A stretch of 64,000 nucleotides of DNA, from positions 36,526,779 through 36,590,778 of the forward strand of contig OW121742.1 in the NCBI GenBank assembly GCA_933228675.1, written 5' to 3'. A model generated the notes under the pieces. That model was given only the letters and a program-made list of their open reading frames with translations, made no database searches and was not told the origin of the DNA. Source of the DNA: Stomorhina lunata (Eukaryota > Arthropoda > Insecta > Diptera > Rhiniidae). This document shows, piece by piece, positions 2,401 to 29,515 of the stretch. The position numbers and the translations under genes are program-made. Numbering within the stretch: the first letter of the stretch is position 1; every line of letters begins with the position of its first letter.

Positions 2401-3240
2401 TATATTTTTCAAAATGAACTATTTTTACAGAAAATTATACAAAAATGTTCTAGATTTATTAGACCCTTTTAAAAAATTTTTAAATTTTTCAAACTACTTC
2501 TTATTTTTATTGGAATTTTTTAAAAAAATTTGTTATTTAGGAAGTTTTTAATTTTTTTTTTTTTTAAGGAAATTTTTTACAAATTTGTAACTTTAACAGG
2601 AAATTTTTCACAAATTTCTTATTTTTATAGGAAATTTTTCAAAAATCCTTTTTGTATAGGAAATTTTTAAAAAATTCTTATTTTTATAGTCAATTTTTCA
2701 AAAATTTCTTGTTTTCGTAAGAAATTTTTCAAACATTTCTTAATTTTAAATGAAATTTTTTAAAAATTTCTTATTTTTGTAGAAAATTTTTAACAAAATT
2801 TCTTGTTTTATATGAAATTTGCAAAAGTTTGAAATTTTGTTTACTTTTATAGGCTCTTTTTTTAAATTTCTTTGTTTTATAGGAAATTTTTCAAAAAAAT
2901 TTTATTTTTATAGATTTTTTTTTAAATTTTTTCTTATTTTTATAGGAAATTTTTCAAACCTTTTTTTTTAATTTTTGAAATTTTAAAGGGCATTTTTCAA
3001 AAATTTCTCATTTTTAAAGGAAATTTTTAAAATGTCTTTTTTTTTAATAAAATATTTCAGAAATTTCTTAATTTTATAAAAATTTTTTATATTTTGTAAT
3101 TTTTATAGAAAATTTGTCTAAAATTTCTTATTTTGCTACGAAATTTCTTTTTTTTATAGGAAATTTTTCAAAAAACTCTTATTTTTTATAAGAAATTCAT
3201 CAAAAATTTGTTATTTTTATAGGAAATTTTTTTAAAATTT

Positions 3241-4685: not shown

Positions 4686-4695
4686 TTTAAAATTT

Positions 4696-6090
4696 CTTAT
4701 TTTCATCAAAAGTTATTAAAAAATTTCTTATTTTTATAAGAAAATTTTCAAAAAATTCTTATTTTTGTAAGAAATAAAAAAAAGATTAATTTTAACAGAA
4801 AATTTTTAAAAAATTTCTTATTTCTGTAGGAAATTTTTAAAAAATATCTTAATTTTATGGGATTTTTTTAAAAATTTTCCATTTTTGTAGAAAATTTTTC
4901 AAAATTTTCTTATTTTTATAGGAAACTTTTCAAAAATTTCTTATTTTTATAGGAAATTTTTCAAAAATTTCTTACTTTTATAATAAATTTTTCAAAAATT
5001 TCTTTTTTTTAGAAAATTTTTCAAAATTTTCTTAATTTTTATAGAAAATGTTTCAAAAGTTTCTCATTTCTATACGAAATATTTGAAAGAAGGTCTTATT
5101 TTTTAGGAAATTTTTAAAAAAATTCCTATAAAATTGGAAAATTTCTTAGTTTAATGGGAAATTTTTCAAAAATTTCTTAGTTTTATAGAAAATTTTTCAA
5201 AAATTTCTTATTTTTATCGGAAATTTTTCCAAAATTTCTTGTTTTTATAGGAAATTAAAAAAAAAAATCTTATTTTTATAGGAAATTTTAAAAAATTTCT
5301 TATTTTTGCAGAAATTGTTTCAAAGTTTTCTTAACTGAAAAGGTTTTTTTTTTTTGAATTTCTTATTTTTTATGGAAATTTTTCAAAAGTTTCTAATTTT
5401 TATAGAAATTTTTAAAAAATTTCCTATTTTAATTGAAAATTTTTTAAAAAATTATAATACCCTTATTTTATAGGAGATTTTCAAAAAATTTCTTTTTTTT
5501 TAAGGAAATTTTTCAAAAATTTTTACTTATATTATAAAAAGTAAAAATTTCTTATTTTTATAAGCAATTTTTCAAAATTTTTTTTTTATGTTATCGGATA
5601 TTTTGCAAAAATTTCTAATTTTTATAGGAAATTTTTCAAAAATTTTTTGTTTGTATCGGAAATTTTTCAAAAACTTTTTATTTTTATAGGAAATTTTTCA
5701 AAAATTCTTATTTTATAGGAAATTAATCAAAAACTTCTTATTTTTATAAGAAATTTTTTTTTAAATTTTCTCATTTTTATTGAAAATTTTTAAAAAAGTT
5801 ATTATTTTGATAAGAAAATTTTCAAAAATTTCTTATTTTTACGGAAAACTTTTAAAAAATTTCTTATTTTTGTAGGAATTTTTTTTTTTATAAGAAATTT
5901 TTGAAAAATGTCTTATTTGTATAAGAAATTTTTCAAAAATTTCTTTGTTTTATAGGAAATTTTTTAAAAAATTCTTGTTTTTATAGGCAATTTTTCAAAA
6001 ATTTCTTATTATTATAAAAAAATTTTCTAAAATTTTTTATTTTCATAGAAAATTTTCAAAAAATTTCTTATTTTTATAGAAAATTTTTCA
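4696..6090. repeat. Tandem segmental duplication, copy 2
   Basis: Second copy of the block at 3241-4685. Most private substitutions are shared, so the duplication is younger than the divergence among the 31-bp units inside it. Confidence 0.85.
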
Positions 6091-6190
6091 GAAATTTCTT
6101 ATTTTATAAAAAACTTTCCTCTAATTTCATTTTGGTGTCAAAAAATTTTTCAAAAAATTATAATTTTTAAAGAATTTTTTTTTTTTTAAT

Positions 6191-8489: not shown

Positions 8490-10142
8490 AAAAAGTTTTC
8501 TACAGAAATTGATTCCATTTTTTGTGAAGAAAAGACATCCAATCGTAAACTTTTCTCTAGAAAAGATATCTCATAGTAATCAACTTTTCTATAGAAAAGT
8601 CATCCTATCGTCGACCTTTCTATAGAAAAGTCATCCTATCTTCGACTTATCTATAGAAAAGTCATCCTATAGTCAACTTTTCTTTAAAAAAGTCTTCCTA
8701 TCGTCAACTCTTCTATAGAAAAGTCTTCCTATCGTCAACTCTTCTATAGAAAAGTCTTCCTATCGTCAACTCTTCTATAGAAAAGTCATCCTATCGTCAA
8801 CTTTTCTATAGAAAAGTCTTCCTATCGTCAACTTTTCTATAGAAAAGTCTTCCTATCGTCAACTTTTCTATAGAAAAGTCTTCCTATCGTCAACTTTTCT
8901 ATAGAAAAGTCTTCCTATCGTCAACTTTTCTATAGAAAAGTCTTCCTATCGTCAACTTTTCTGTAGAAAAGTCTTCCTATCGTCAACTTTTCTATAGAAA
9001 AGTCTTCCTATCGTCAACTTTTCTATAGAAAAGTCTTCCTATCGTCAACTTTTCTATAGAAAAGTCTTCCTATCGTCAACTTTTCTATAGAAAAGTCTTC
9101 CTATCGTCAACTTTTCTATAGAAAAGTCTTCCTATCGTCAACTTTTCTATAGAAAAGTCTTCCTATCGTCAACTTTTCTATAGAAAAGTCTTCCTATCGT
9201 CAACTTTTCTATAGAAAAGTCTTCCTATCGTCAACTTTTCTATAGAAAAGTCTTCCTATCGTCAACTTTTCTATAGAAAAGTCTTCCTATCGTCAACTTT
9301 TCTATAGAAAAGTCTTCCTATCGTCAACTTTTCTATAGAAAAGTCTTCCTATCATCAACTTTTCTATAGAAAAGTCTTCCTATCGTCAACTTTTCTATAG
9401 AAAAGTCTTCCTATCGTCAACTTTTCTATAGAAAAGTCTTCCTATCGTCAACTTTTCTATAGAAAAGTCTTCCTATCGTCAACTTTTCTATAGAAAAGTC
9501 TTCCTATCGTCAACTTTTCTATAGAAAAGTCTTCCTATCGTCAACTTTTCTATAGAAAAGTCTTCCTATCGTCAACTTTTCTATAGAAAAGTCTTCCTAT
9601 CGTCAACTTTTCTATAGAAAAGTCTTCCTATCGTCAACTTTTCTATAGAAAAGTCTTCCTATCGTCAACTTTTCTATAGAAAAGTCTTCCTATCGTCAAC
9701 TTTTCTATAGAAAAGTCTTCCTATCGTCAACTTTTCTATAGAAAAGTCTTCCTATCGTCAACTTTTCTATAGAAAAGTCTTCCTATCGTCAACTTTTCTA
9801 TAGAAAAGTCTTCCTATCGTCAACTTTTCTATAGAAAAGTCTTCCTATCGTCAACTTTTCTATAGAAAAGTCTTCCTATCGTCAACTTTTCTATAGAAAA
9901 GTCTTCCTATCGTCAACTTTTCTATAGAAAAGTCTTCCTATCGTCAACTTTTCTATAGAAAAGTCTTCCTATCGTCAACTTTTCTATAGAAAAGTCTTCC
10001 TATCGTCAACTTTTCTATAGAAAAGTCTTCCTATCGTCAACTTTTCTATAGAAAAGTCTTCCTATCGTCAACTTTTCTACAGAAAAGTCTTCCTATCGTC
10101 AACTTTTCTATAGAAAAGTCTTCCTATCGTCAACTTTTCTAT

Positions 10143-12002
10143 AGAAAAGTCTTCCTATCGTCAACTTTTCTACAGAAAAGTCTTCCTATCGTCAACTTTT
10201 CTATAGAAAAGTCTTCCTATCGTCAACTTTTCTATAGAAAAGTCATCCTATCGTCAACTTTTCTATAGAAAAGTCTTCCTATCGTCAACTTTTCTATAGA
10301 AAAGTCTTCCTATCGTCAACTTTTCTATAGAAAAGTCTTTCTATCGTCAACTTTTCTATAGAAAAGACTTCCTATCGTCAACTTTTCTATAGAAAAGACT
10401 TCCTATCGTCAACTTTTCTATAGAAAAGTCTTCCTATCGTCAACTTTTCTATAGAAAAGTCTTCCTATCGTCAACTTTTCTATAGAAAAGTCTTCCTATC
10501 GTCAACTTTTCTATAGAAAAGTCTTCCTACCGTCAACTTTTCTATAGAAAAGTCTTCCTATCGTCAACTTTTCTATAGAAAAGTCTTCCTATCGTCAACT
10601 TTTCTATAGAAAAGTCTTCCTATCGTCAACTTTTCTATAGAAAAGTCTTCCTATCGTCAACTTTTCTATAGAAAAGTCTTCCTATCGTCAACTTTTCTAT
10701 AGAAAAGTCTTCCTATCGTCAACTTTTCTATAGAAAAGTCTTCCTATCATCAACTTTTCTATAGAAAAGTCTTCCTATCGTCAACTTTTCTGTAGAAAAG
10801 TCTTCCTATCGTCAACTTTTCTATAGAAAAGTCTTCCTATCGTCAACTTTTCTATAGAAAAGTCTTCCTATCGTCAACTTTTCTATAGAAAAGTCTTCCT
10901 ATCGTCAACTTTTCTATAGAAAAGTCTTCCTATCGTCAACTTTTCTATAGAAAAGTCTTCCTATCGTCAACTTTTCTATAGAAAAGTCTTCCTATCGTCA
11001 ATTTTTCTATAGAAAAGTCTTCCTATCGTCAACATTTCTATAGAAAAGTCTTCCTATCGTCAACATTTCTATAGAAAAGTCTTCCTATCGTCAACTTTTC
11101 TATAGAAAAGTCTTCCTATCGTCAACTTTTCTATAGAAAAGTCTTCCTATCGTCAACTTTTCTATAGAAAAGTCTTCCTATCGTCAACATTTCTATAGAA
11201 AAGTCTTCCTATCGTCAACTTTTCTATAGAAAAGTCTTCCTATCGCCAACTTTTCTATAGAAAAGTCTTCCTATCGTCAACTTTTCTATAGAAAAGTCTT
11301 CCTATCGTCAACTTTTCTATAGAAAAGTCTTCCTATCGTCAACTTTTCTATAGAAAAGTCTTCCTATCGTCAACTTTTCTATAGAAAAGTCTTCCTATCG
11401 TCAACTTTTCTATAGAAAAGTCTTCCTATCGTCAACTTTTCTATAGAAAAGTCTTCCTATCGTCAACTTTTCTATAGAAAAGTCTTCCTATCGTCAACTT
11501 TTCTATAGAAAAGTCTTCCTATCGTCAACTTTTCTATAGAAAAGTCTTCCTATCGTCAACTTTTCTATAGAAAAGTCTTCCTATCGTCAACTTTTCTATA
11601 GAAAAGTCTTCCTATCGTCAACTTTTCTATAGAAAAGTCTTCCTATCGTCAACTTTTCTATAGAAAAGTCTTCCTATCGTCAACTTTTCTATAGAAAAGT
11701 CTTCCTATCGTCAACTTTTCTATAGAAAAGTCTTCCTATCGTCAACTTTTCTATAGAAAAGTCTTCCTATCGTCAACTTTTCTGTAGAAAAGTCTTCCTA
11801 TCGTCAACTTTTCTATAGAAAAGTCTTCCTATCGTCAACTTTTCTATAGAAAAGTCTTCCTATCGTCAAATTTTCTATAGAAAAGTCTTTCTATCGTCAA
11901 CTTTTCTATAGAAAAGTCTTCCTATCGTCAAATTTTCTATAGAAAAGTCTTCCTATCGTCAACTTTTCTATAGAAAAGTCTTCCTATCGTCAACTTTTCT
12001 AT
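10143..12002. repeat. Sat-B higher-order repeat, 1860 bp, copy 1
   Basis: Variant units recur at an offset of exactly 1860 bp (60 x 31). Examples are TACAG at 10171 and 12031, TCATC at 10748 and 12608, TGTAG at 10791 and 12651, AATTTTTC near 11000 and 12860, the double AACATTT at 11032/11063 and 12892/12923, and CGCC near 11245 and 13105. The start is approximate, set by the first shared variant. Confidence 0.88.
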
Positions 12003-13200
12003 AGAAAAGTCTTCCTATCGTCAACTTTTCTACAGAAAAGTCTTCCTATCGTCAACTTTTCTATAGAAAAGTCTTCCTATCGTCAACTTTTCTATAGAAA
12101 AGTCTTCCTATCGTCAACTTTTCTATAGAAAAGTCTTCCTATCGTCAACTTTTCTATAGAAAAGTCATCCTATCGTCAACTTTTCTATAGAAAAGTCTTC
12201 CTATCGTCAACTTTTCTATAGAAAAGACTTCCTATCGTCAACTTTTCTATAGAAAAGACTTTCTATCGTCAACTTTTCTATAGAAAAGTCTTCCTATCGT
12301 CAACTTTTCTATAGAAAAGTCTTCCTATCGTCAACTTTTCTATAGAAAAGTCTTCCTATCGTCAACTTTTCTATAGAAAAGTCTTCCTATCGTCAACTTT
12401 TCTATAGAAAAGTCTTCCTATCGTCAACTTTTCTATAGAAAAGTCTTCCTATCGTCAACTTTTCTATAGAAAAGTCTTCCTATCGTCAACTTTTCTATAG
12501 AAAAGTCTTCCTATCGTCAACTTTTCTATAGAAAAGTCTTCCTATCGTCAACTTTTCTATAGAAAAGTCTTCCTATCGTCAACTTTTCTATAGAAAAGTC
12601 TTCCTATCATCAACTTTTCTATAGAAAAGTCTTCCTATCGTCAACTTTTCTGTAGAAAAGTCTTCCTATCGTCAACTTTTCTATAGAAAAGTCTTCCTAT
12701 CGTCAACTTTTCTATAGAAAAGTCTTCCTATCGTCAACTTTTCTATAGAAAAGTCTTCCTATCGTCAACTTTTCTATAGAAAAGTCTTCCTATCGTCAAC
12801 TTTTCTATAGAAAAGTCTTCCTATCGTCAACTTTTCTATAGAAAAGTCTTCCTATCGTCAATTTTTCTATAGAAAAGTCTTCCTATCGTCAACATTTCTA
12901 TAGAAAAGTCTTCCTATCGTCAACATTTCTATAGAAAAGTCTTCCTATCGTCAACTTTTCTATAGAAAAGTCTTCCTATCGTCAACTTTTCTATAGAAAA
13001 GTCTTCCTATCGTCAACTTTTCTATAGAAAAGTCTTCCTATCGTCAACATTTCTATAGAAAAGTCTTCCTATCGTCAACTTTTCTATAGAAAAGTCTTCC
13101 TATCGCCAACTTTTCTATAGAAAAGTCTTCCTATCGTCAACTTTTCTATAGAAAAGTCTTCCTATCGTCAACTTTTCTATAGAAAAGTCTTCCTATCGTC
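12003..13200. repeat. Sat-B higher-order repeat, copy 2 (partial)
   Basis: Second, shorter copy of the 60-unit block. Shared variants stop near 13200, where a CATCC variant at about 13211 is not matched in copy 1. A few differences between copies (for example CATCC near 10243 versus 12165) show later mutation or conversion. Confidence 0.85.
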
Positions 13201-13705
13201 AACTTTTCTATAGAAAAGTCATCCTATCGTCAACTTTTCTATAGAAAAGTCTTCCTATCGTCAACTTTTCTATAGAAAAGTCTTCCTATCGTCAACTTTT
13301 CTATAGAAAAGTCTTCCTATCGTCAACTTTTCTATAGAAAAGTCTTCCTATCGTCAACTTTTCTGTAGAAAAGTCTTCCTATCGTCAACTTTTCTATAGA
13401 AAAGTCTTCCTATCGTCAACTTTTCTATAGAAAAGTCTTCCTATCGTCAACTTTTCTATAGAAAAGTCTTCCTATCGTCAACTTTTCTATAGAAAAGTCT
13501 TCCTATCGTCAACTTTTCTATAGAAAAGTCTTCCGATCATCAACTTTTCTATAGAAAAGTCTTTTTATCGCCAACTTTTCTGTAGCAAAAGTTTTCCTAT
13601 CTTAAATTTTTTTGTAGCTAAAGACTTCCTTTTCCACTTTTCTATAGCAAAGATCTTCCTATCGCCAAGTTTTATATAGCAAAAGTTTCTTTGTCGTTAA
13701 CTTGC

Positions 13706-14689: not shown

Positions 14690-15254
14690 AATTATAAACC
14701 CGTTTTTGACAAATTTCTCATAAAAATAAGAAATTTTTAAAAACTTCCTGTAAAAATAAGAAATTTTTTGACAAATTTCCTATAAAAATAAGAAATTTTT
14801 GAAAAATTTCCTATAAAAATAGGAAATTTTTGAAAAATTTCCTATAAAAATAGGAATTTTTTGAAAAATTTTCTATAAAAATAGGAAATTTTTGAAAAAT
14901 TGCCTATAAAAATAGGAAATTTTTGAAAAACTGCCTATAAAAATAGGAAATTTTTGAAAGATTTCCTAAAAAAATAGGAAAATTTTGAAAAATTTCCTAT
15001 AAAAATAGGAATTTTTTGAAAAATTTCCTATAAAAATAGGAAATTTTTGAAAAAATTCCTATAAAAATAGGAAATTTTTGAAAAAATTCCTATAAAAATA
15101 GGAAATTTTTGAAAAATTTCCTATAAAAATAGGAAATTTTTGAAAAATTTCCTAAAAAATTAAGAAATTTTGAAAAATTTCACAAAAAAAATACGAAATT
15201 TTTGAAAAATTTAAAAAAAAAATAAGATATTTTTGAAAATTTGTTATAAAAGTA

Positions 15255-15478
15255 AAAAACAATTTGAAAAATTTTCTACAAAAATAAGAATTATTTGAAA
15301 AGTTTCATATGAACATAAAAAATTTTTGAAAAATATATCGAAAAAATAAGAAATTTTTGAAAAATTTCCTGGCAAAATATGAAATTTTTTTAAAATTTCC
15401 TATAAAAATAAGAACTTTTTTTATAAATAAAAATAGAAAATTTTTGAAAAATTTCCTACAAAAATAAGAATTATTTGA
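15255..15478. repeat. Internal duplicated block in sat-A, copy 1
   Basis: Diverged segment sharing rare variants with 16758-16981 at an offset of about 1503 bp. The shared features include a stretch with ATATATCGAAAAAATAAG and the motif AAGAACTTTTTTTATA. The two copies bracket the homogenised core. Confidence 0.8.
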
Positions 15479-16757
15479 CAAAAAATAGGAAACTTTTGAA
15501 AAATTTCCTATAAAAATAGGAATTTTTTTGTAAAATTTCCTATAAAAATAGGAATTTTTTGAAAAATTTTCTATAAAAATAGGAAATTTTTGCAAAATTG
15601 CCTATAAAAATAGAAAATGTTTGAAAAATTGCCTATAAAAATAAGAAATTTTTGAAAAATTTCCTGTAAAAATAGGAAATTTTTGAAAAATTTCCTATAA
15701 AAATAGGAAATTTTTGAAAAATTTCCTATAAAAGTAGGAAATTTTTGAAAAATTTCCTATAAAAGTAGGAAATTTTTGAAAAATTTCCTATAAAAATAGG
15801 AAATTTTTGAAAAATTTCCTATAAAAATAGGAAATTTTTGAAAAATTTCCTATAAAAATAGGAAATTTTTGAAAAATTTCCTATAAAAATAGGAAATTTT
15901 TGAAAAATTTCCTATAAAAATAGGAAATTTTTGAAAAATTTCCTATAAAAATAGGAAATTTTTGAAAAATTTCCTATACAAATAGGAAATTTTTGAAAAA
16001 TTTCCTATACAAATAGGAAATTTTTGAAAAATTTCCTATAAAAATAGGAAATTTTTGAAAAATTTCCTATAAAAATAGGAAATTTTTGAAAAATTTCCTA
16101 TAAAAATAGGAAATTTTTGAAAAATTTCCTATAAAAATAGGAAATTTTTGAAAAATTTCCTATAAAAATAGGAAATTTCTGAAAAATTTCCTATAAAAAT
16201 AGGAAATTTTTGAAAAATTTCCTATAAAAATAGGAAATTTTTGAAAAATTTCCTATAAAAATAGGAAATTTTTGAAAAATTTCCTATAAAAATAGGAAAT
16301 TTTTGAAAAATTTCCTATAAAAATAGGAAATTTTTGAAAAATTTCCTATAAAAATAGGAAATTTTTGAAAAATTTCCTATAAAAACAGGAAATTTTTGAA
16401 AAATTTCCTATAAAAATAGGAAATTTTTGAAAAATTTCCTATAAAATTAGGAAAATTTTGAAAAATTTCCTATAAAAATAGGAAATTTTTGAAAAATTTC
16501 CTATAAAAATAGGAAATTTTTGAAAAATTTCCTATAAAAATAGGAAATTTTTGAAAAATTTCCTATAAAAATAGGAAATTTTTGAACAATTTCCTATAAA
16601 AATAGGAAATTTTTGAAAAATTTCCTATAAAAATAGGAAATTTTTGAAAAATTTCCTATAAAAATAGGAAATTTTTGAAAAATTTCCAATAAAAATAGGA
16701 AATTTTTGAAAAATTTCCTATAAAAATAGGAAATTTTTGAAAAATTTCCTATAAAAA

Positions 16758-16981
16758 AAAAACAATTTGAAAAATTTTCTACAAAAATAAGAATTATTTG
16801 AAAAGTTTCATGTGAAAATAAGAAATTTTTGAAAAATATATCGAAAAAATAAGAAATTTTTGAAAAATTTCCTGACAAAATATGAAGGTTTTTTAACATT
16901 TCCTATAAAAATAAGAACTTTTTTTATATATAAAAATAGAAAATTTTTGAAAAATTTTATACAAAAATAAGAATTATTTGA
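16758..16981. repeat. Internal duplicated block in sat-A, copy 2
   Basis: Second copy of the diverged block at 15255-15478, with a few substitutions. It marks the right edge of the uniform core. Confidence 0.8.
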
Positions 16982-17548
16982 AAAATTTCCTATAAAAATA
17001 AGAATTTTTTGAAAAATTTCCTGAAAAACTAAAAAGTTTTTGAAAATTTTCCTAAAAAATAAGAAATTTAAAAAAAAATGTTCTATAAAAATAAGAAATT
17101 CTTGAAAATTTTCTATAAAAAATTCAACATTTTTTATAGATTTCCTAAAATAAAAATTTTTTATGAGAAATTTCCTATAAAAACGAGAAACTTTTGAAAA
17201 ATTTCCTATAAAAATAAGATTTTTTAAAAAATTTCTTATCAAAAAAAGAAAATTTTAAAAAATTTCCTATAAAATAAGAATTTTTTTAAAAATTTCCTAA
17301 TAAAAAGAAGAAATTTTTGAAACATTTTGAAAATGTTTGAAAGTTTTGAAAAATTCCTACAAAAATAAGACATTTTTAAATATTTTCTATAAAAATAAGA
17401 AATTTTTGAAAGGTTTCCTATAAAAATAAAAAAATTGGAACAATTTCTTATAAAAATAAGGATTTTTTTTTAATTTCGTATAAAAAGAAGAAATTTTGTA
17501 AAATTTCCTATAAAAATAAGAAATTTTTCTATAAAAATTAGAAAGTTT

Positions 17549-17553
17549 CCTAT
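17549..17553. repeat. Target site duplication (CCTAT), element 3' side
   Basis: The five bases directly outside the LTR at 17554 are CCTAT. The same five bases lie directly outside the other LTR at 26263-26267. A 5-bp duplication is usual for BEL/Pao integrases. CCTAT is also one half of the short inverted stem CCTAT/ATAGG in the sat-A unit. Confidence 0.93.
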
Positions 17554-17854
17554 TGTTGGGGTGTAGCGCAAAGTATTTGTTACAAATATAAGATTAAAAA
17601 ATCGATTATAAATTGGGGGTTAAATATATGTTTATTTAACTGCGGGATACGCACCTTTTTTCGTCTGCGGTCACAATATAAGTAAGTGCTAATTACATTT
17701 TTATTAGCTAAGTAAGCGCCACGGATAAAAGTAACTTCAAGTTTGTGTACTAAAGAGAGAGAGCAGGATTGGAAAATTCCAGCTTTCTCTTTAGTACACT
17801 TGTGGCTTGGTTTACAAAACTTAAAACTAAAATAATAGGGTTCGCGCGTAAACA
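17554..17854 (-). repeat. 3' LTR of the BEL/Pao element (301 bp)
   Basis: It begins TG and ends CA on both strands (TGTTGGGG at the left, GCGTAAACA at the right). It is identical base for base to 25962-26262. On the element strand it has two AATAAA signals (plus-strand TTTATT at 17700-17705 and 17631-17636) that could direct polyadenylation. It also has a 14-bp perfect inverted repeat, GTGTACTAAAGAGA at 17745-17758 with its complement at 17786-17799. A 91-codon open frame spans the LTR on the minus strand and is likely chance. Confidence 0.97.
17745..17799 (-). other. Hairpin in the LTR (14-bp perfect stem)
   Basis: GTGTACTAAAGAGA (17745-17758) pairs perfectly with TCTCTTTAGTACAC (17786-17799). 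The 27-base interval contains a smaller dyad, GGAA-AA-TTCC. The same structure occurs in the other LTR at 26153-26207. If it lies in the transcribed R region it would form a stable RNA hairpin. Function is not known from sequence. Confidence 0.75.
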
Positions 17855-17868
17855 TCCCGCCCCCCTTG
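17855..17868 (-). promoter_or_regulatory. Polypurine tract of the BEL/Pao element
   Basis: On the element strand the sequence directly upstream of the 3' LTR reads CAAGGGGGGCGGGA, a purine run with one interrupting C. This position and composition fit the plus-strand primer site of LTR retrotransposons. Confidence 0.8.
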
Positions 17869-18082: not shown

Positions 18083-18901
18083 TTACACGCCAAATGTGCC
18101 GATGATAATCCAGCCGAGCATAGTGTCTTGCGCCATTGGGGTGCCCACTCTCTCGGCTTGAATGCTGGGACGTATTAAGCGAGGGTAGATATCTGCGCCA
18201 AGGGTAAAGTTGATGTGTTGGTTAACATAGAAGTTAGGGTCTGCAAGTCTCAAATTCGTATATAACGATGCAACTCGACTATCAATTTGCTCCTTTGGTT
18301 GTTTTTGTGGAAGACTATTGTCAATCTTGAAAGTTACATCGAACACTACACCTTCATCGTGGCGAGATCGTATTTTGGTTCGGCACCAACGGTCAGTTCC
18401 AGACCTTTCAACAGTCAGTTTATATTTCTCCACGAGAAATTCGGCAATGGAACTATATTCCACACATGGGTTAAGTATTCCTCTTACATTAGCCCAATTG
18501 TCCCCCAGTTTCATTTGAACAAATGCTGTTGGGAGTAGGGTAACAGTACGCAACTTGGTAGTGGATGATTGTTGAGAATTGGTGCTGTTTCTGCGATCTT
18601 CCTGAAGACGACGATGACGATGTAGAAGAGTATGGTGCTTACCCTTGCATTGGTGGCATCGTTCTGTGTTATGGCATCGATTTATTTGGTGGGAGTGAGC
18701 TAGGCAGTTCTCACAGTATTTGTGTTTTTTAATGACCTTTAGTTTTTCCAAGACATTCATTCTTTTAAATTTAAGGCACCTGCTGAGGGTGTGGTCTTGA
18801 CGGCATAAACGGCATTTGTGAGAAGGCTTACGATGTTGTTGACGGCGATTACCTCTTCGTTCTTCAATTGGCGAAACACTCCGGCGTTGGTGACGGGGCA
18901 T
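18083..18901 (-). CDS. BEL/Pao second ORF: Gag zinc knuckles plus inactivated protease-like domain
   Basis: Intact 272-codon ORF located after pol, where env would lie. It is very basic at the N terminus (residues 1-26). Three zinc knuckles follow: C30-C33-H37-C42, C63-C66-H71-C76 and C82-C85-H89/H90-H94. Their spacing (33 and 19 residues between first cysteines) is exactly that of the knuckles in this element's Gag-Pol (C349, C382, C401). Next comes a protease-like region (about 120-272) whose end, GADIYP...MLGWIIIG, matches GGDIYP...VFGWIVTG of the element's own protease. The catalytic LIDSASE of Gag-Pol (D501) is LNPCVE here, so Asp is replaced by Asn144 and the enzyme should be dead. No signal peptide or membrane segment is seen, so it is not env. 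The ATG lies 27 bases after the pol stop and 4 bases after a strong splice acceptor, suggesting expression from a spliced mRNA. Inference: an RNA-binding accessory or regulatory Gag paralogue. Confidence 0.88.
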   Translation of the reverse strand: MPRHQRRSVSPIEERRGNRRQQHRKPSHKCRLCRQDHTLSRCLKFKRMNVLEKLKVIKKHKYCENCLAHSHQINRCHNTERCHQCKGKHHTLLHRHRRLQEDRRNSTNSQQSSTTKLRTVTLLPTAFVQMKLGDNWANVRGILNPCVEYSSIAEFLVEKYKLTVERSGTDRWCRTKIRSRHDEGVVFDVTFKIDNSLPQKQPKEQIDSRVASLYTNLRLADPNFYVNQHINFTLGADIYPRLIRPSIQAERVGTPMAQDTMLGWIIIGTFGV

Positions 18902-18904
18902 ATT

Positions 18905-18928
18905 GCTGTAAATAGAGTAAAAAGAGAA
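18905..18928 (-). promoter_or_regulatory. Predicted 3' splice acceptor upstream of ORF2
   Basis: Reading the minus strand, a pyrimidine-rich run (TTCTCTTTTTACTCTATTTACAG) is cut just after AG at 18906. It is followed by CAAT and the ORF2 ATG at 18901. A tract of this quality placed immediately before a downstream ORF matches the arrangement of spliced env-type messages in retroelements. Splicing itself is inferred. Confidence 0.65.
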
Positions 18929-21900
18929 TTAGTGTTGTTCGGGGTTAGGAAGTAAAACTAGTTTAACTATGGGCCTAGTAACTACGCCATTAGCGGTTTG
19001 TACTTCGGCGACTCTAACACGATTGTCTCTACCACGTATAACATTTGCTATGCGGCCTAGTCGCCACTGATTGGGGGGTAAATTATCTTGCTTAATAACG
19101 ACAAGATCACCTGTGGCATAATCGCGTTGGGGGTACTTCCATTTCACGCGTTTGTGGAGTTCTTTCAAATACTCTTCTTTCCACCTTAGGGCAAATTGGT
19201 GATGCAGAACCTTTAATTTTTGCCACCGGTTTACGTAACTCAATGAATGGTCGGCTAAGTTAGGTTCTGGGGGTGATAATAGTGGACCTCCTATAAGGAA
19301 GTGTCCGGGGGTAAGCGCACATATATCTGCCGGATTCTCGCTCACAGGGCTAAGGGGTCTGGAGTTCAGACAAGCTTCGATTCTGGATAGCATCGTCGAA
19401 AACTCCTCAAAAGTGAAGCTTTGGTTATGTGCGATGCGTTTTAGATGGGTCTTAAAACTCTTAACGCCGGCTTCCCAGAGTCCGCCCATATGAGGCGCCC
19501 CTGGAGGTATAAAGTGCCATTCTAATGCGGCAAAACTATGTTGTTCAAGCACTTTTCGACGCACTAATTCTACAAAGCGAGCTCGGTCTGCGTCTATAAT
19601 GTGTGAAGCACCAACGAATCCAGTGCCGTTATCCGAGAAAAGTGCGATAGGTGCTCCTCGTCGGCTAAAGAATCTAGCGAACGCAGCTAGAAAAGCCTGG
19701 GTAGATATTTCTGTGGTGGCCTCAAGATGTATGGCCTTGGTCGCAAAACAGACGAAGACCAGTACGTAACCTTTCGTTACTCTACAGCCACGTCCAGCAT
19801 ACGTCTTTAGATCAAAGGGCCCAGCGAAGTCTACGCCAGTGTTGGCGAACGGACGTGATAAGGTAGTTCGCTCAGGGGGTAAAGCTGCCATCATTTGCTC
19901 ACTCTTTCGGCGCTTCAGTATCACACAAATACGACATCCTGAAATTATAGTTTTAATTAGAGTTTTTAGCTTTGGTACATAATAATAAGTTCGCATTAGT
20001 CGAAATAGTAACGCATTTTGACCATGAATCGAATACTTGTGGAGATAGCCTAAGAATAGCCTAGTATAGCGTCCATGGTATGGCAAAAGGATGGGAAATC
20101 GTTCGTCGTAACTCAGGGAAGGAGAATTTACTAAACGACCATTAATCCTAAGAATGCCATTAATATCGAGAAATGGATTGAAGGTTAGTATAGAGCTTTT
20201 ACGGGGAATGCCCAAACCTTGAGATAACAAATCATATTCTTTCTCAAAGTATAATTTCTGACAGGCAATAATCATTCGGCATTTAGCGTTTTCAATTTCG
20301 GCTCGTGTAAATTCTTCGCTTGTCACAAGCATGTGTCGCAAGTTTCTTCTGCAGCTGTAATAGAATCGGAAAACTCGGCAAATAATGCGCATAGCTTTTG
20401 GGAAGTTGGAAAAGTCGTTTAATATATCTGAGTTTTGAACTTGATTTAAGTGGACTTGAACAGGTTTCGCCTCTTCATCAGTTGAAAAGTTTGAAGAACT
20501 AAGTGGCCATTGATCTTGAGGGAGTTTTAGCCATGAAGGTCCATGCCACCATAAGTTATTCGTTATGAGCTGGGAGAATGTCAAGCCACGGGTTGCCAAA
20601 TCGGCGGGGTTACTTTGAGAGTCAACATGAAACCAAGATTGACTCCCGACTTTTTCAACAATGGAAGAAACTCTGTTCTCAACGAAAGTTTTCCATCGGT
20701 TAGGGGGTTTCTGCAACCATGCCAAGACTATAGTTGAGTCAGTCCAAAGAAAGAGCTTAAGATCCTTAAGATTAAGTTGAGATTGTATGGATTCAATCAT
20801 GGTTGCCATGAGTTCTGCTCCGCAGAGTTCCTTGCGGGGTAACGAGACGAACTTTATCGGGGCCACTTTCGTTTTAGCAACTAAGAGATGAGTGGAAATA
20901 AAACCGTTGTTTTCTGCTCGAAGGTATAAAGTGGCAGCATAAGCTTTCTCCGACGCATCGCAAAACCCATGTAGTTCAATAGAATACGATGGATCGAAAT
21001 CAACAAATCGAGGGATTTTTATTTTTTCTATATTGGAGTAATCATCGGTGAATTCGTGCCATTGCTTCAAAGTGGATTCCTTCAAACTTTCGTCCCAGTC
21101 GGTTTCATCTTTCCAAACTTGTTGCATTATGATTTTGGCCACGATTATTTTGGGGGCTAGCCAACCGGCGGGGTCAAAGAGTTTGGCGATTTCAGACAAA
21201 ACTGACCTTTTCGATGTTGATTTTCGATCGGGGTAACTTTTTAATTGGAAATAAAAGTAATCACTTCCCGCATTCCAACGCAAGCCTAAAGTTTTAGTAG
21301 TACTAGAGTCAGATAATTGAAGAAACTCTGTACCTAAGAGATGTTCGGGGGGTAGATCCTTGAGTAAATACTCGTGGTTGGCAGTCCATTTACGGAGTTC
21401 AAATCCAGCGGATCGGAGGACTTCGATAAGTTGATCTCGAGCCTTTAAGGCTGTAGAGAGGGTATGAGCTCCAGCCAAAACATCATCAACGTACATAAAA
21501 TCCCTTAAGATTTCTGATACTATGGGGTTTGTATTTTCGCAGGACTTGGCTATCTCTAGTAACGTACGAATCGCCAGATACGGGGCACAGTTCACGCCGA
21601 AGGTGACTGTTTTTAATTCAAAATCTTGAGGATCTTCATTGGGGGTTTTTCGAAATATTATTCGTTGAAATGGGGTATGTGAAGGATTCACAAGTATCTG
21701 GCGATACATCTTCTCAATGTCAGAATTGAAGACATATCTGAAGAGCCTCCAACGCAGAATTAATACATTCAGATCCGATTGCAAAGTTGGACCGGGGTAA
21801 AGTAAGTCATTAAGACTGTTTCCGTTTGATGAGGGGCTAGACGCGTTGAAAACTACTCGCAATTTTGTAGAAGTGCTTTCAGGTTTGATCACGGCGTGAT

Positions 21901-24220
21901 GAGGCAGATGATATGTGCTATTAGCTGTGGATGAGGGGGAAACCTGAGTCATTTGGTTTAATGAAGAGTATTCGAAAATGACTCGATCATATTCGCTCTT
22001 AATTTGGGGATTTTTCAGCAATCTCGTCTCATTTCGGAGAAATTGAGACAGCGCTATGTGACGTGATGCTCCAATATTAATGTCTTCCGGATATTCTCTG
22101 CGAAAAGGCAAGGAAACCACAAAACGTCCTTGGCTATTCCGATAAGTAGTGGACTGGAAAACATTTTCGCAGTGTACGTCTTCATTCGAGAGACGGGGCT
22201 TCTTTGGCACTTCCTCCAATTCCCAAAATTTCCTGATTTGGTCATTTAGGGCGATTGTATTGAAAAACGATGAAACTGGCTTAATATTATTCACCGAACC
22301 AAGTTTGCCAGTGACAATCCAACCGAATACGGTTTGTTGTGCCACTAAGGACCGATTGCTGTCCCAACGCAGGCCGCTTCTAAGTATCTTCGGATAGATA
22401 TCTCCCCCCAGCAAAAGTTCAATTTCCGAACATCTAAGAGTATGGGTATCTGCCATCTTTAAGTCCGAAAACTCACTGTTTCTCAAGGCTGAGAGGGGGT
22501 AATATGGGAGTTCACCGGTTAATTTCTTGACAACTAAGGCGTCAGTATGGGTTTCAAAAGAGTTATCGAGAGGAGAGCCGATGCGAATGTAGCAAAGTTG
22601 AGTGGAAGTCGCAGTAAGTGAATCATTGAGACCGTGGACTTGAGTTGTTGAACTTCGAGTTTTGAGCGCTAGTTTTCCTTGCAGCTTCTTTGAGATAAAG
22701 GTAGCTTCGGATGCTGAATCGATTAGTGCTCGTACGGTATATTTAAAGTCATCAGAGTAGATATCAACGAGGGCTGTTCCGAGCAAAACTGTCGAGTTAG
22801 GAGTGGACTGTAATTGTGTCGAATAGGATTGTCTCATTTGGGCTGCGGCTTCAGCTGAAGTAGAGGGGTTTGTGTTTAGAGGGGGGTTAGAAACGCGAGG
22901 ATTACTCGACGCTGCATTGGGGTTTGAAGTCGCTGCCCTGTGACTGGATTGGGGGTTTGCATTTGAGGAGTTGTCCGAACGGTGTAGCAACGAATGGTGC
23001 TTTTGTTTGCACAAGTGACAAACGTACTGACTCCTACATTTTTTAAATTCGTGCGATGTTCCTAAGCAGTTGGTACATCTCTTCTGTTTTTTAACAATCG
23101 AGTAACGCTCTTCAATAGACATACTTAGAAACGATGTACAAAGTCTAAGGGGGTGAACATTGGGGCATAAGGAACATTTTCCTGGCTTATCGTTAGTAAC
23201 ATTCGTGTTATAACTGTTGACCTTCTTCGCATCTGAAAAGTTTTGATTCCTCGGTCTCGAAAACTTTTGATGATTGGGGTTGGAACTATGGGGATTGGTA
23301 AATGTGGTTCTAATATCTGCTACCGACTCCAGAGTTTGGAACCTGGATGTTAGGAAAGTATCCATCTGTTTCCACGTCGGCAACTCGGTGTTATTCGGCA
23401 GATACTGTTCCCATAGACTAAGGGTAGTTTCAGGTAAACATGTTGAACAGATATACACGAAAATGATATCCCAGTTGGCGGTGTCTATTTTCAGAAGAGA
23501 CAGATTCGTAACGCAATCGTTTATTGTTCGTTGGATTCGTCTGATATTGGTAGCAGTTTCTTTATAAATGGGGGTTATATTAAAGAGAATTTTAAGTTGA
23601 GCGTTGATTAGAATTCGTTTATTTTCGTATCGATTCACGAGGTTTTGCCATGCCATCTCGAATCCATCATTGGTTATGGGACACGTCTTCAACAGTTCTC
23701 GAGCCTCTCCCTGGGTTTTTTTGATTAGATGACACATCTTTTCGACCGGAGAAAGACGCTTGCTATTTCGGTAGAGGGCGGTGAACATGTCCCGAAATGT
23801 TGGCCAAGATTGGTAGTCTCCATAAAACACTTCCGTATCGCAAGGTGGTAAGGAAATATTAGGAGCAGAATCAACGCTGGGGATAGAGGATGGGGCTGCT
23901 ATGATAGGGGGAGGTGTAGCAGGTTCAACTTGGTGAACATCCACTAGCTCATTAAGTTTGGATAAAACTTTAACATGAGCCTCAAAAGTTGAAAAGAATC
24001 TCGATTTAAGGGTTCCGACTTCGATGTCTTCTTCTAGTTCGTTGAACTTGTTTAGGATGTCATCATAACACCTCCTAAACTCTGACCATAACCTCACAAT
24101 TTCATCCTTTTGGACCTCAAGTGTGTGCACAGAATGAACATCGGCAGATAACGCATCGAAATATGCTTGGAATTCGACCACGCGATCGGAAGCGCGTATA
24201 AATGTATCGAGAACGGACAT
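18929..24220 (-). CDS. BEL/Pao Gag-Pol polyprotein (1763 aa)
   Basis: Single uninterrupted ORF encoding the structural and enzymatic polyprotein of the element. Gag occupies about 1-420: a DUF1759-like segment near 125-305 and zinc knuckles at C349-C352-H356-C361, C382-C385-H390-C395 and C401-C404-H408/409-H413. The aspartic protease (DUF1758-type) has its active site at D501 in ALIDSASEATF. The reverse transcriptase has DIEKMYRQI (D834) and YVDD at 910-913. A Pao-type segment follows, then RNase H with D1088 (GFCDAS), E1131 or E1136, D1161 (WTDST) and D1207 (NPADLATRG). Integrase has the zinc site H1394/H1399/C1429/C1432 and the catalytic triad D1464, D1530 (SDNGTGF), E1583 (GGLWEAGVKS). A DUF5641-like domain lies at about 1665-1758. 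No stop, frameshift or lost catalytic residue was seen. The start at 24220 gives a Gag N terminus of the usual kind. The length is typical of BEL/Pao, which makes Gag and Pol from one frame. Confidence 0.97.
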   Translation of the reverse strand: MSVLDTFIRASDRVVEFQAYFDALSADVHSVHTLEVQKDEIVRLWSEFRRCYDDILNKFNELEEDIEVGTLKSRFFSTFEAHVKVLSKLNELVDVHQVEPATPPPIIAAPSSIPSVDSAPNISLPPCDTEVFYGDYQSWPTFRDMFTALYRNSKRLSPVEKMCHLIKKTQGEARELLKTCPITNDGFEMAWQNLVNRYENKRILINAQLKILFNITPIYKETATNIRRIQRTINDCVTNLSLLKIDTANWDIIFVYICSTCLPETTLSLWEQYLPNNTELPTWKQMDTFLTSRFQTLESVADIRTTFTNPHSSNPNHQKFSRPRNQNFSDAKKVNSYNTNVTNDKPGKCSLCPNVHPLRLCTSFLSMSIEERYSIVKKQKRCTNCLGTSHEFKKCRSQYVCHLCKQKHHSLLHRSDNSSNANPQSSHRAATSNPNAASSNPRVSNPPLNTNPSTSAEAAAQMRQSYSTQLQSTPNSTVLLGTALVDIYSDDFKYTVRALIDSASEATFISKKLQGKLALKTRSSTTQVHGLNDSLTATSTQLCYIRIGSPLDNSFETHTDALVVKKLTGELPYYPLSALRNSEFSDLKMADTHTLRCSEIELLLGGDIYPKILRSGLRWDSNRSLVAQQTVFGWIVTGKLGSVNNIKPVSSFFNTIALNDQIRKFWELEEVPKKPRLSNEDVHCENVFQSTTYRNSQGRFVVSLPFRREYPEDINIGASRHIALSQFLRNETRLLKNPQIKSEYDRVIFEYSSLNQMTQVSPSSTANSTYHLPHHAVIKPESTSTKLRVVFNASSPSSNGNSLNDLLYPGPTLQSDLNVLILRWRLFRYVFNSDIEKMYRQILVNPSHTPFQRIIFRKTPNEDPQDFELKTVTFGVNCAPYLAIRTLLEIAKSCENTNPIVSEILRDFMYVDDVLAGAHTLSTALKARDQLIEVLRSAGFELRKWTANHEYLLKDLPPEHLLGTEFLQLSDSSTTKTLGLRWNAGSDYFYFQLKSYPDRKSTSKRSVLSEIAKLFDPAGWLAPKIIVAKIIMQQVWKDETDWDESLKESTLKQWHEFTDDYSNIEKIKIPRFVDFDPSYSIELHGFCDASEKAYAATLYLRAENNGFISTHLLVAKTKVAPIKFVSLPRKELCGAELMATMIESIQSQLNLKDLKLFLWTDSTIVLAWLQKPPNRWKTFVENRVSSIVEKVGSQSWFHVDSQSNPADLATRGLTFSQLITNNLWWHGPSWLKLPQDQWPLSSSNFSTDEEAKPVQVHLNQVQNSDILNDFSNFPKAMRIICRVFRFYYSCRRNLRHMLVTSEEFTRAEIENAKCRMIIACQKLYFEKEYDLLSQGLGIPRKSSILTFNPFLDINGILRINGRLVNSPSLSYDERFPILLPYHGRYTRLFLGYLHKYSIHGQNALLFRLMRTYYYVPKLKTLIKTIISGCRICVILKRRKSEQMMAALPPERTTLSRPFANTGVDFAGPFDLKTYAGRGCRVTKGYVLVFVCFATKAIHLEATTEISTQAFLAAFARFFSRRGAPIALFSDNGTGFVGASHIIDADRARFVELVRRKVLEQHSFAALEWHFIPPGAPHMGGLWEAGVKSFKTHLKRIAHNQSFTFEEFSTMLSRIEACLNSRPLSPVSENPADICALTPGHFLIGGPLLSPPEPNLADHSLSYVNRWQKLKVLHHQFALRWKEEYLKELHKRVKWKYPQRDYATGDLVVIKQDNLPPNQWRLGRIANVIRGRDNRVRVAEVQTANGVVTRPIVKLVLLPNPEQH

Positions 24221-25696: not shown

Positions 25697-25702
25697 ACTT
25701 AC
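25697..25702 (-). promoter_or_regulatory. Predicted 5' splice donor (GTAAGT) in the leader
   Basis: The minus strand reads AATTAAT then GTAAGT, a full consensus donor, about 260 bases downstream of the 5' LTR. Joining it to the acceptor at 18906 would give a short leader fused directly to ORF2. The pairing is inferred. Confidence 0.5.
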
Positions 25703-25939
25703 ATTAATTTCTCTGGATATCAGCAAAACGATTTTTTTTTTAAAGATGATTTTTGATGATAATTTTTAATGATGATTTTGTAATGATGATTTTAGACGAT
25801 ATAGATGATTTTGATGATGATGCAATAATCCAATTTCTGAGGATTTTCGGGGGTATTACAGAGGGGATAATTGTGATATTCCACGGGGGTTAAAAAATCT
25901 GTAATTAGAAATATTTGTAACAAATGTTCGCTGTTCCAA

Positions 25940-25958
25940 GGCTCCGGGAGAAGGACCA
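25940..25958 (-). promoter_or_regulatory. Primer binding site of the BEL/Pao element
   Basis: Three bases inside the 5' LTR the element strand reads TGGTCCTTCTCCCGGAGCC. It begins with TGG as required to pair with a tRNA CCA end. The first nine bases would fit a tRNA ending in GAAGGACCA, as I recall for insect tRNA-Tyr, but the rest matches less well, so the primer tRNA is not assigned with confidence. Confidence 0.75.
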
Positions 25959-25961
25959 AAA

Positions 25962-26262
25962 TGTTGGGGTGTAGCGCAAAGTATTTGTTACAAATATAAG
26001 ATTAAAAAATCGATTATAAATTGGGGGTTAAATATATGTTTATTTAACTGCGGGATACGCACCTTTTTTCGTCTGCGGTCACAATATAAGTAAGTGCTAA
26101 TTACATTTTTATTAGCTAAGTAAGCGCCACGGATAAAAGTAACTTCAAGTTTGTGTACTAAAGAGAGAGAGCAGGATTGGAAAATTCCAGCTTTCTCTTT
26201 AGTACACTTGTGGCTTGGTTTACAAAACTTAAAACTAAAATAATAGGGTTCGCGCGTAAACA
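25962..26262 (-). repeat. 5' LTR of the BEL/Pao element (301 bp)
   Basis: Identical to 17554-17854, with TG/CA ends, the two AATAAA signals and the 14-bp hairpin. It carries the promoter, but no clear TATA box could be assigned. It is flanked on its outer side by CCTAT. Confidence 0.97.
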
Positions 26263-26345
26263 CCTATAAAAAGAATAAATTAAAAAAAACTTTAAACTTT
26301 CCTGTAAAATCAAGAAATTTTTTAAAATTATTTTTTTAATTCTTT
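26263..26345. repeat. Sat-A remnant split off by the BEL/Pao insertion, with target duplication
   Basis: It starts with the duplicated CCTAT (26263-26267) and continues with decayed sat-A in the centre-G/AAAA orientation (CCTATAAAAAGAATAAA, then TTTCCTGTAAAATCAAGAAA). The 14.7-17.6 kb array thus continued through the insertion site. Confidence 0.8.
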
Positions 26346-27639: not shown

Positions 27640-29515
27640 ATAATTCCCTACATCGAAAAATAATCTTATATTTATAAGAAATATTTCAAAAATTTCTTAT
27701 TTTTAAAGGAAATTATTGACAAATTTCTTATTTTAATAGGAAATTTTTCAAAAAAGTTCTATTTTTTTAAGGAAATCTTCAACAATTTTTTATTTTTGTA
27801 CGAAATTTTTAAAAAATTGCTTATTTTTATAGGAAATTTTTCAAAAATTTCTTATTTTTAAAGGAAATTTTACAAAATTTGTTATTTTTATAAGAAATTT
27901 TTCAATAATTTCTATTTTTTATAGGAAATTTTTAAAATATTTCTTATTTTTATAGAAAATTTTTTAAAAACTTTTTATTTTTCTAGGAAATTTTTCAAAA
28001 ATTTCTTATTTTTATAGGAAATTTTTCAAAAATTTCTTATTTTTGTAGGAAATTTTTCAAAAATTTCTTATTTTTATAGGGAATTTTTCAAAAATTTCTT
28101 ATTTTTATAGGAAATTTTTCAAAAATTTCTTATTTTTATAAGAAATTTTTAATAGGAAATTTTTCAAAAATTTCTTATTTTTATAGGAAATTTTTCAAAA
28201 ATTTCTTATTTGCATAGGAAATTTTTCAAAAATTTCTTATTTGCATAGGAAATTTTTCAAAAATTTCTTATTTTTATAGAAAATTTTTCAAAAATTTCTT
28301 ATTTTTATAGGAAATTTTTCAAAATTTTCTTATTTTTATAGGAAATTTTTCAAAAATTTCTTATTTTTATAGGAAATTTTTCAAAAATTTATTATTTTTA
28401 TAGCAAATTTTTCCAAAAATTTCTTATTCTTATAGGAAATTTTTCAAAATTTTCTTATTTTTATAGCAAATTTTTCAAAAATTTCTTATTTTCATAGCAA
28501 ATTTTTCAAAAATTTCTTATTTTCATAGCAAATTTTTCAAAAATTTCTTATTTTTATAGCAAATTTTTCCAAATTGTTTTACTTCTGTGAGAAATTTCTT
28601 ATTTTTATATGCAAAAAAAAATTTTCTTATTTTTATATGGAAATTGTTCAAAAATTTCTTATTTTTATAGGAAATTTTTCCAAAATTTCTTATTTTTATA
28701 GGATTTTTTTTCAAAAATTTCTATTTAATTTTTTATTTTTATAGGAAAGTTTTTAAAAATTTTTTGCTTTAATACAAAATTTTTCATATTTTTAGAAAAA
28801 TTTTCAAAAACTCTTATTTATATAGGAAATTTTTCAGAAATTTCTACTTTTTATAGAAAAGTTTTCAAAAATTTCTTATTGTTATAGGAAGTTTTTAAAT
28901 TGTTTTATTTTATAGCAAACTTTTCAAAAATTTCTTACTTTTATAGGAAATTTCTCAAAAATTTCTTAGTTTATAAAGAAATTTTTAAAAAATGTATTAT
29001 TTTTTTAAGAAATTTTTCAAAAATTTCATATTTTTTTAAGTAATTTTTTAAAAAATTCTTATTTTTTTAAGAATTATTTTAAAAATTTTTTCAAAAATTT
29101 TTTATTTTGTTAAAAAAATTTTTAAAAATTTTTTAAAATTTTATTTCTATAGAAAATTCTAGAAAAAAATTCATATTATATTATTATATTTTTAAAACAT
29201 TTCTTATTTTTATAGGAAATTTAAAAAAATTCTTATTTTTATAGGAATTTTTCCAAAATTTCTCATTTTTATTCAAAAAATTTCTTATTATAGGAAATTT
29301 TTCAAACATTTCATAATATAGGAAATTTTTCTTACTTTTGTAAAAATTTTTAATTTTTATAGGAAATTTTTATGGGAAATTTATTTAAAAATTTCTTATT
29401 ATTATAGGAAAATTTTCAAAAATCTGTTAATTTTATAGAAAAATTTTCAAAAATTTCTTCTTTCTATAGGAAATTTTTTTCTTAATTTTGGAGAAAATTT
29501 TTTAAAAATGACATA
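27640..29515. repeat. Sat-A array (centre C, loop TTTT)
   Basis: Tandem 31-bp units, well preserved between about 28000 and 28500 and decayed at both edges. The arms are mostly ATAGGAAA on one side and TTTCTTAT on the other, so one pair in the dyad is mismatched. A subset of neighbouring units near 28400-28560 shares ATAGCAAA, marking local spread of a variant. Confidence 0.94.

Follow-up and report, generated by a model that had tools for sequence, protein, structure and literature searches.

CERV, an extra protein of the C. elegans retroelement Cer1, is translated from a spliced mRNA and exports unspliced RNA, for which its cysteine loop is needed (PMC10309623, in part), and the p22/p18 proteins of Ty1 are Gag-derived and act in trans (PMC4599808, PMC8458377, in part). 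Accessory open reading frames (ORFs) of long terminal repeat (LTR) retrotransposons also include sORF1/sORF2 of the MDG1 group (PMC11952523) and the ORF3s of rotifer elements (PMC5408684); these are other proteins of other retroelement groups, and the portions of the two papers considered here describe no duplicate of a nucleocapsid-protease (NC-PR) segment. For BEL/Pao elements (Belpaoviridae) the family profile of the International Committee on Taxonomy of Viruses (ICTV) lists only gag, pol and an env-like gene, which in some elements lies between pol and the 3' LTR, and calls their replication poorly understood (PMC8742986). Here we describe a BEL/Pao element of the fly Stomorhina lunata with a second ORF, ORF2, behind its Gag-Pol ORF. 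The element lies within a stretch of 64,000 nucleotides (nt; contig OW121742.1, G000:C7:36526779-36590778), referred to below as the window. No description of a second BEL/Pao ORF of NC-PR type was found among the matches listed in a search of titles and beginnings of abstracts in open-access PMC; this scope included de la Chaux and Wagner 2011 (PMC3118150) and the Troyka paper (PMC12440569), both in part, and Repbase lay outside it.

On the sequence evidence presented below we consider it probable, though well short of certain, that ORF2 is an accessory gene in env position, expressed from a spliced RNA, whose RNA-binding product aids the export or packaging of element RNA. Like CERV, it would be an extra element protein, and the cysteine-rich loop of CERV might be a zinc finger; however, CERV has 517 amino acids (aa), a 5-exon mRNA and, in the text of that source considered here, no obvious homology outside nematodes, whereas ORF2 is paralogous to the NC-PR region and its three knuckles are of canonical type. 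A spliced mRNA and a role in export are known for CERV; for ORF2, which has splice-like sites, both are putative. The p22 protein of Ty1 is a Gag fragment produced from an alternative transcript, while ORF2 is a separate, diverged ORF with its own acceptor-like site. With the env-like ORF of some BEL/Pao elements ORF2 shares its position, but it is a non-membrane protein by hydropathy.

Relationship of ORF2 to Gag-Pol

ORF2 is intact from ATG to TAA, as stated in an earlier note on this DNA; it encodes 272 aa and starts 27 nt past the Gag-Pol stop codon. BLASTP comparison with residues 338-641 of the Gag-Pol of the same element revealed 82 identical residues of 305 (27%) with an E value of 8e-30, and the likeness is therefore not due to chance. 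The protein contains three zinc knuckles (C30-C42, C63-C76 and C82-H94, with the patterns CX2CX3HX4C, CX2CX4HX4C and CX2CX3HHX3H), i.e. the CCHC, CCHC, CCHHH series of BEL/Pao NC, in which the CCHHH knuckle is a proposed Pao-like feature (PMC4580426, in part). Their metal ligands are invariant in all 27 aligned sequences of clades A and B (defined below). The first cysteines of successive knuckles are spaced by 33 and 19 residues, exactly as noted earlier. This spacing had also been read as evidence of the source of ORF2, but it was found in 45 of the 53 BEL/Pao Gag-Pols scored (three of 56 fell outside the scoring pattern); it is thus generic, and was rejected as a sign of descent from the element's own Gag.

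The homology extends over about 300 residues. The C-terminal block aligns with the end of the Gag-Pol protease region (LGADIYPRLIRP / LGGDIYPKILRS), and Asp501 of the Gag-Pol LIDSASE motif is paired with Asn144 of ORF2 in the BLASTP alignment; both observations had been made before and were confirmed. A retropepsin fold, as expected of an NC-PR paralogue, was predicted for the C-terminal domain, but the catalytic Asp of an active retropepsin is replaced in the window ORF2 by Asn144. Judged by these comparisons, ORF2 is a paralogue of the BEL/Pao NC-PR region.

The clade-A ORF2 proteins are basic (pI 9.7-10.4 in 13 sequences), and no hydrophobic stretch was found in the same number of sequences, the highest 19-residue Kyte-Doolittle mean being 0.87-1.46. 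ORF2 as an env gene was rejected, since there is no membrane-spanning stretch by this measure, and a host gene or env was likewise rejected because there was also no Pfam match at E ≤ 1. None of the matches obtained resembled an unrelated host protein.

Splice-like sites

The ORF2 ATG is preceded, at a distance of 4 nt, by a polypyrimidine stretch and the sequence TTTACAG. Such splice-like sites, which are additional to the observations of the earlier note, were scored with an acceptor rule (YAG within 20 nt of the ATG, with at least 10 pyrimidines among the 14 nt ahead of it). The rule was passed by 19 of 22 ORF2 starts (12 from clade A, seven from B and three from C), compared with 2.3 expected from shuffled flanks; 70 of 1338 other ATGs in clade-A elements also passed. 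The test leaves out L022, a near-copy of L018, and L039, whose start is outside the piece read.

A donor-like GTRAGT motif was identified in 14 of 18 leaders (all clade A), and the first such motif lies 186-292 nt past the 5' LTR in every one of the 14. None of these has an ATG between the LTR and this first GTRAGT, and the remainder of the leader contains 0-10 ATGs. The 14 leaders represent about eight families and are not 14 independent cases; L012, L013 and L026, for which no Gag-Pol start was scored, are not part of the leader analysis. The probability of finding some GTRAGT by chance is 0.21-0.38 for each of the 14, and the shared position of the donor is a stronger point than its presence. 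Removal of the intervening sequence would make the ORF2 start codon the first AUG after the LTR in the spliced mRNA.

Maintenance by selection

The ratios of nonsynonymous (dN) to synonymous (dS) divergence were calculated between families by the Nei-Gojobori method. For ORF2 they were 0.067 (window/L014), 0.084 (L017/L018), 0.071 (L023/L025) and 0.094 (window/L012), at dS of 0.58-1.93, and for Gag-Pol 0.082, 0.074 and 0.092 for the first three of these pairs. Further ORF2 pairs, all saturated or nearly so, gave 0.054 (window/L016), 0.101 (L017/L023) and 0.109 (L017/L024). When five pairs were divided by domain, the knuckles and the protease-like part had dN of 0.04-0.14 versus dS of 0.57-2.16 (one saturated), and the linker had dN of 0.15-0.29. 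The near-identical pair L018/L022 had a ratio of 1.06 at dS 0.02, as expected of neutral decay after insertion. Sequence divergence thus marks ORF2 as a gene maintained by selection, with dN/dS like that of Gag-Pol, and the long maintenance proposed previously was borne out. An intact ORF2 beside a broken Gag-Pol was not taken as a sign of selection, because ORF2 is short. Distances between the ORF2 copies of nine elements were correlated with those between their Gag-Pols (r 0.944; equalled in none of 20,000 permutations), which indicates that the two travel together.

In the closest family pairs the synonymous divergence (pS) of ORF2 was above that of Gag-Pol (0.61 versus 0.41, 0.52 versus 0.24 and 0.69 versus 0.48; window positions 18083-24220 and loci L014, L017, L018, L023 and L025). 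Recombination between families or differing mutation rates could account for this excess.

Relatives and variants of ORF2

A search of the 728-Mb S. lunata genome with ORF2 gave 185 matches. Among those listed, 47 span residues 6-269 at an identity of 44% or more, and a count by eye found 45 of the 47 to be free of in-frame stops. Many of them are near-copies, and partial matches, a number of which contain stops, were not counted. A clade-B query yielded 131 matches, 10 of them with stops. Twenty loci, all chosen by their ORF2 match, were read over about 10 kb each; in 11 of them a single Gag-Pol ORF of 1747-1765 aa is followed by ORF2.

Among public proteins a profile search found 79 matches at E ≤ 0.001, the majority without a name. 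The named sources of full-length matches are the calyptrate flies Lucilia, Cochliomyia, Stomoxys, Haematobia and Musca, and one moth record; the scorpion protein P0075 is a Gag, and the beetle protein P0078 spans the protease region. Two contigs of Lucilia sericata suggest the same arrangement of Gag-Pol and ORF2: one, 225,208 bases long, carries both LOC119608194 (Gag-Pol, P0084) and LOC119608196 (ORF2, P0001), and the other, of 7,296 bases, carries both P0006 and P0082. Relatives of ORF2, sought in other copies and other flies as a check on the earlier proposal, are therefore present in both.

The moth protein (P0043, Eumeta japonica, 14-kb contig) groups within clade B beside copies from S. 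lunata, as a result of either contamination or horizontal transfer.

Comparison of the relatives distinguished five forms, A to E, whose constant parts are the knuckles and the position. In clade A, to which the window ORF2 belongs, the catalytic position is Asn in 22 and Asp in five of the 27 readable members (one of 28 could not be read by pattern), and the next residue is Pro in all 27. In contrast, all 56 Gag-Pols sampled have the catalytic Asp. Clade B keeps D[ST][GA] in 26 of 26 proteins, and clade C has an N-terminal extension and the motif [DN][LF]CC (three D, one N). Loss of the protease motif, by these alignments, is clade-specific; a uniform loss was rejected because clade B retains the motif. 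The description of ORF2 as protease-dead thus holds for the degenerate motif of the window copy, but not as a general state. Ten BEL/Pao Gag-Pols (P0090-P0093, P0095, P0096, P0099-P0101 and P0104) have DPAS or DPCS in place of D[ST] at the active site of the protease, and Pro after Asp is therefore by itself no mark of a dead protease.

The proteins of form D (in public data usually 138-204 aa long) carry the knuckles and mostly a TIVINV-like C-terminal end, but no protease domain. A genome search with P0060 gave 150 matches, including other clades and Gag-Pols, of which the best 22 are close D relatives. Eight loci of form D were read (L040-L047, with L040 and L041 near-copies of each other), and all have Gag-Pol C-terminal sequence upstream and a YAG within 10 nt of the start. 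Form E, which has 221-230 aa and combines three knuckles with a tail rich in Arg and Ser, was found behind two of the four Gag-Pol frames of more than 1500 aa in the P0060 search, which had been detected by their Gag knuckles; both copies belong to one family, and each is linked to its Gag-Pol frame by position. Gag-Pol sequence is also located upstream of 10 of the 11 clade B and C loci, the exception being L039. The knuckle pattern was matched by 28/28 proteins of A, 26/26 of B, 4/4 of C and 20/24 of the D list (P0053-P0076, which includes the Gag protein P0075 and P0062, by appearance a truncated clade-B protein); seven sequences outside the pattern, three Gag-Pols and four from the D list, were left out.

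Two loci have unusual ORF2 copies. In L033 (G000:C10:51780226-51781068) a clade-B ORF2 is fused with the end of Gag-Pol in an open frame of 2142 aa, apparently through a frame change close to the Gag-Pol end. L008 (G000:C12:699268-700572) encodes a 435-aa ORF2 with the overlapping segments 1-178 and 15-272 in tandem in one frame, an apparent internal duplication.

Origin

In a tree of 62 sequences (14 of clade A, 12 of B, four of C and 32 Gag-Pols from flies, ants, an aphid, a mosquito and others), a branch with a support of 100/100 separates clades A, B and C, as one group, from the Gag-Pols. The sequences are a subset of a 114-row tree, from which 35 of 91 Gag-Pol extracts had been left out (over-long ones, and by thinning); some clade-B proteins of the public search are in neither tree, D and E are outside the smaller one, and E is in none. 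This topology fits an origin of ORF2 from one old duplication of a BEL/Pao NC-PR segment. The placement of ORF2 among the Gag-Pols is uncertain because the branches are long: grouping with the Gag-Pols of calyptrate flies, a group picked after the 114-row tree had been viewed, was not rejected (p-AU 0.121), and by these data an origin within them is neither shown nor rejected. Hence, of the earlier proposal that ORF2 is a paralogue of the element's own Gag, the NC-PR paralogy stands, but its own Gag was not established as the source. A knuckle-only tree for class D (65 columns; D needs four changes, A three) is too short to resolve, and D is therefore assigned to ORF2 on the strength of its position, its knuckles and the acceptor-like site, and not as a proven clade.

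Probable role of ORF2

We propose the following sequence of events. A BEL/Pao NC-PR segment would have been duplicated long ago to give ORF2, and the new gene inherited alongside Gag-Pol. Joining of the donor-like site in the leader, about 260 nt past the 5' LTR, to the acceptor-like site before ORF2 would produce a subgenomic mRNA, and translation of this spliced mRNA would yield the small, basic ORF2 protein with its three zinc knuckles. The protein would bind the RNA of its own element in trans and aid the unspliced form, either in leaving the nucleus, the task of CERV in Cer1, or as extra nucleocapsid or chaperone in packaging, and the retropepsin domain of clade A may serve as a non-catalytic, perhaps dimerising, scaffold. 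An RNA-binding helper is favoured because an element that splices must still export its unspliced RNA, a task for which Cer1 uses CERV.

Several points weigh against this interpretation. Splicing, translation and RNA binding are all deduced from sequence, in which export, packaging and chaperoning are indistinguishable, and all comparison loci bear ORF2. L021, L023 and L024 fail the acceptor rule on pyrimidines, yet each has TTTACAG; four of the 18 leaders (L022, L023, L027 and L028) lack GTRAGT, although the 5' LTR of L022 and L023 was not properly located, and the chance of some GTRAGT ranges from 0.01 to 0.44 per leader overall. Four of the 24 D-list proteins lie outside the knuckle pattern. 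Finally, the purifying selection on the clade-A protease-like domain is left unexplained by it, and the motif kept throughout clade B suggests that catalysis matters there.

The last two points, together with the predicted retropepsin fold, argue for ORF2 as a second protease or protease regulator, with clade B encoding an active retropepsin and the inactive fold of clade A modulating Gag-Pol maturation through mixed dimers. We regard this as unlikely for the gene as a whole, given the loss of Asp in most of clade A, the [DN][LF]CC motif of clade C and the absence of the domain from D and E though their knuckles persist; clade B is where a function connected with the protease is most plausible. 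Trans-dominant self-restriction, by which ORF2 would join Gag particles or pair with the Gag-Pol protease and limit copy number like Ty1 p22/p18, has a precedent in the Ty1 reports cited above and agrees with the derivation of ORF2 from BEL/Pao Gag-Pol sequence, and the predicted retropepsin half could in principle heterodimerise. However, a gene that did nothing but limit its own element would tend to disappear from copies that replicate fast, whereas strong selection has kept ORF2 in at least five forms, of which D and E have no protease domain for pairing. The copy-number control suggested earlier is thus a weak fit and in our judgement improbable, as it fits the long maintenance less well than an RNA helper does.

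Suppression of the host's piRNA/siRNA silencing by RNA-binding knuckles would suit a basic, knuckle-bearing protein kept in many fly families, but there is no specific evidence for it, and NC ancestry is a simpler account of the knuckles, which makes it quite improbable. A substitute for env in cell-to-cell transfer, like sORF2 of the MDG1 group, is very improbable: ORF2 does lie where env would, with an acceptor-like site ahead of it, and transfer of this kind is known from Drosophila (PMC11952523, in part), but sORF2 is a short transmembrane protein and the clade-A ORF2 a zinc-knuckle protein without a hydrophobic stretch. A decaying duplicate without function would explain the stops or altered ends in two of the 47 full-length matches, several partial matches, L013 and L026, as well as the L018/L022 ratio, but is scarcely credible in view of the low dN/dS of the four between-family pairs and the invariant metal ligands.

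If ORF2 is indeed an RNA-binding helper, BEL/Pao elements regulate their own RNA through a dedicated protein. More tentatively, and with the odds somewhat against it, the BEL/Pao elements carried by calyptrate flies, and perhaps those in further insects, may be 'complex' retroelements, in which a spliced, NC-PR-derived gene with a Rev-type role occurs in at least five architectures that keep the three knuckles; simple-looking BEL/Pao elements may then be nearer to complex retroviruses than supposed. The nuclear exit of unspliced RNA in splicing retroelements is a live question for which these flies offer many natural variants, and related proteins at the same position display different states of the protease domain (motif kept, motif lost, domain absent).

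Organization of the element and the window

The element (8709 bp, 26262 to 17554, minus strand) is inserted in a 31-bp minisatellite array. It consists of a 5' LTR, a primer-binding site (PBS), a 1741-nt leader, the Gag-Pol ORF, ORF2, a polypurine tract (PPT) and a 3' LTR (Table 1). The insertion is recent, because the two LTRs are 100% identical. Gag-Pol has Pfam matches above cut-off to Peptidase_A17 (PF05380), DUF1759 (PF03564) and DUF5641 (PF18701), and matches under cut-off to RVT_1, Asp_protease_2 and H2C2. The TG...CA LTRs, PBS, PPT, a total length within 4.2-10 kb and the Pao-type Pol domains are those of Belpaoviridae. The TGGTCC start of the PBS was also seen in several other families.

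Table 1. Coordinates of the BEL/Pao element features, given as window positions.
Feature	Position	Strand	Basis or remark
5' LTR	25962..26262	minus	TG...CA, 301 bp, 100% identity to 3' LTR
Primer-binding site TGGTCCTTCTCCCGGAGC	25941..25958	minus	3 nt past LTR; read from sequence
Presumed non-coding exon 1 beyond LTR	25703..25961	minus	0 ATG
Donor-like GTAAGT (AAT/GTAAGTG)	25697..25702	minus	260 nt past 5' LTR
Gag-Pol ORF, 1763 aa	18929..24220	minus	BEL/Pao Pfam domains
Acceptor-like TTCTCTTTTTACTCTATTTACAG	18906..18928	minus	4 nt 5' of ORF2 ATG
ORF2, 272 aa, NC-PR paralogue by sequence	18083..18901	minus	ORF list, BLASTP, dN/dS, alignment
ORF2 basic N-terminus, residues 1-29, net +8, MPRxxRRSxSP	18815..18901	minus	alignment, charge computation
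ORF2 three zinc knuckles, residues 30-94	18620..18814	minus	alignment
ORF2 retropepsin-like domain, residues 118-272	18086..18550	minus	predicted fold
Asn144 codon replacing catalytic Asp	18470..18472	minus	BLASTP and alignments
Polypurine tract AAGGGGGGCGGGA	17855..17867	minus	read from sequence
3' LTR, 301 bp	17554..17854	minus	LTR comparison
Target-site duplication ATAGG	17549..17553 and 26263-26267	.	weak: also within surrounding minisatellite unit

Nothing within the window matched Rfam at gathering scores, and three other ORFs (436, 584 and 290 aa) gave no Pfam match at E ≤ 0.01; they lie in 12-bp tandem arrays (CTATGTCTTAGT; 55762-60947 and 63134-63999) and are probably by-products of the repeat. 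Most of the window is AT-rich minisatellite, with a 31-bp unit and its multiples (2482-6105, 14703-17528, 27656-29478, 45281-54257 and others). A second, more uniform 31-bp array is located at 8528-13686 (166 copies, 97% matches).
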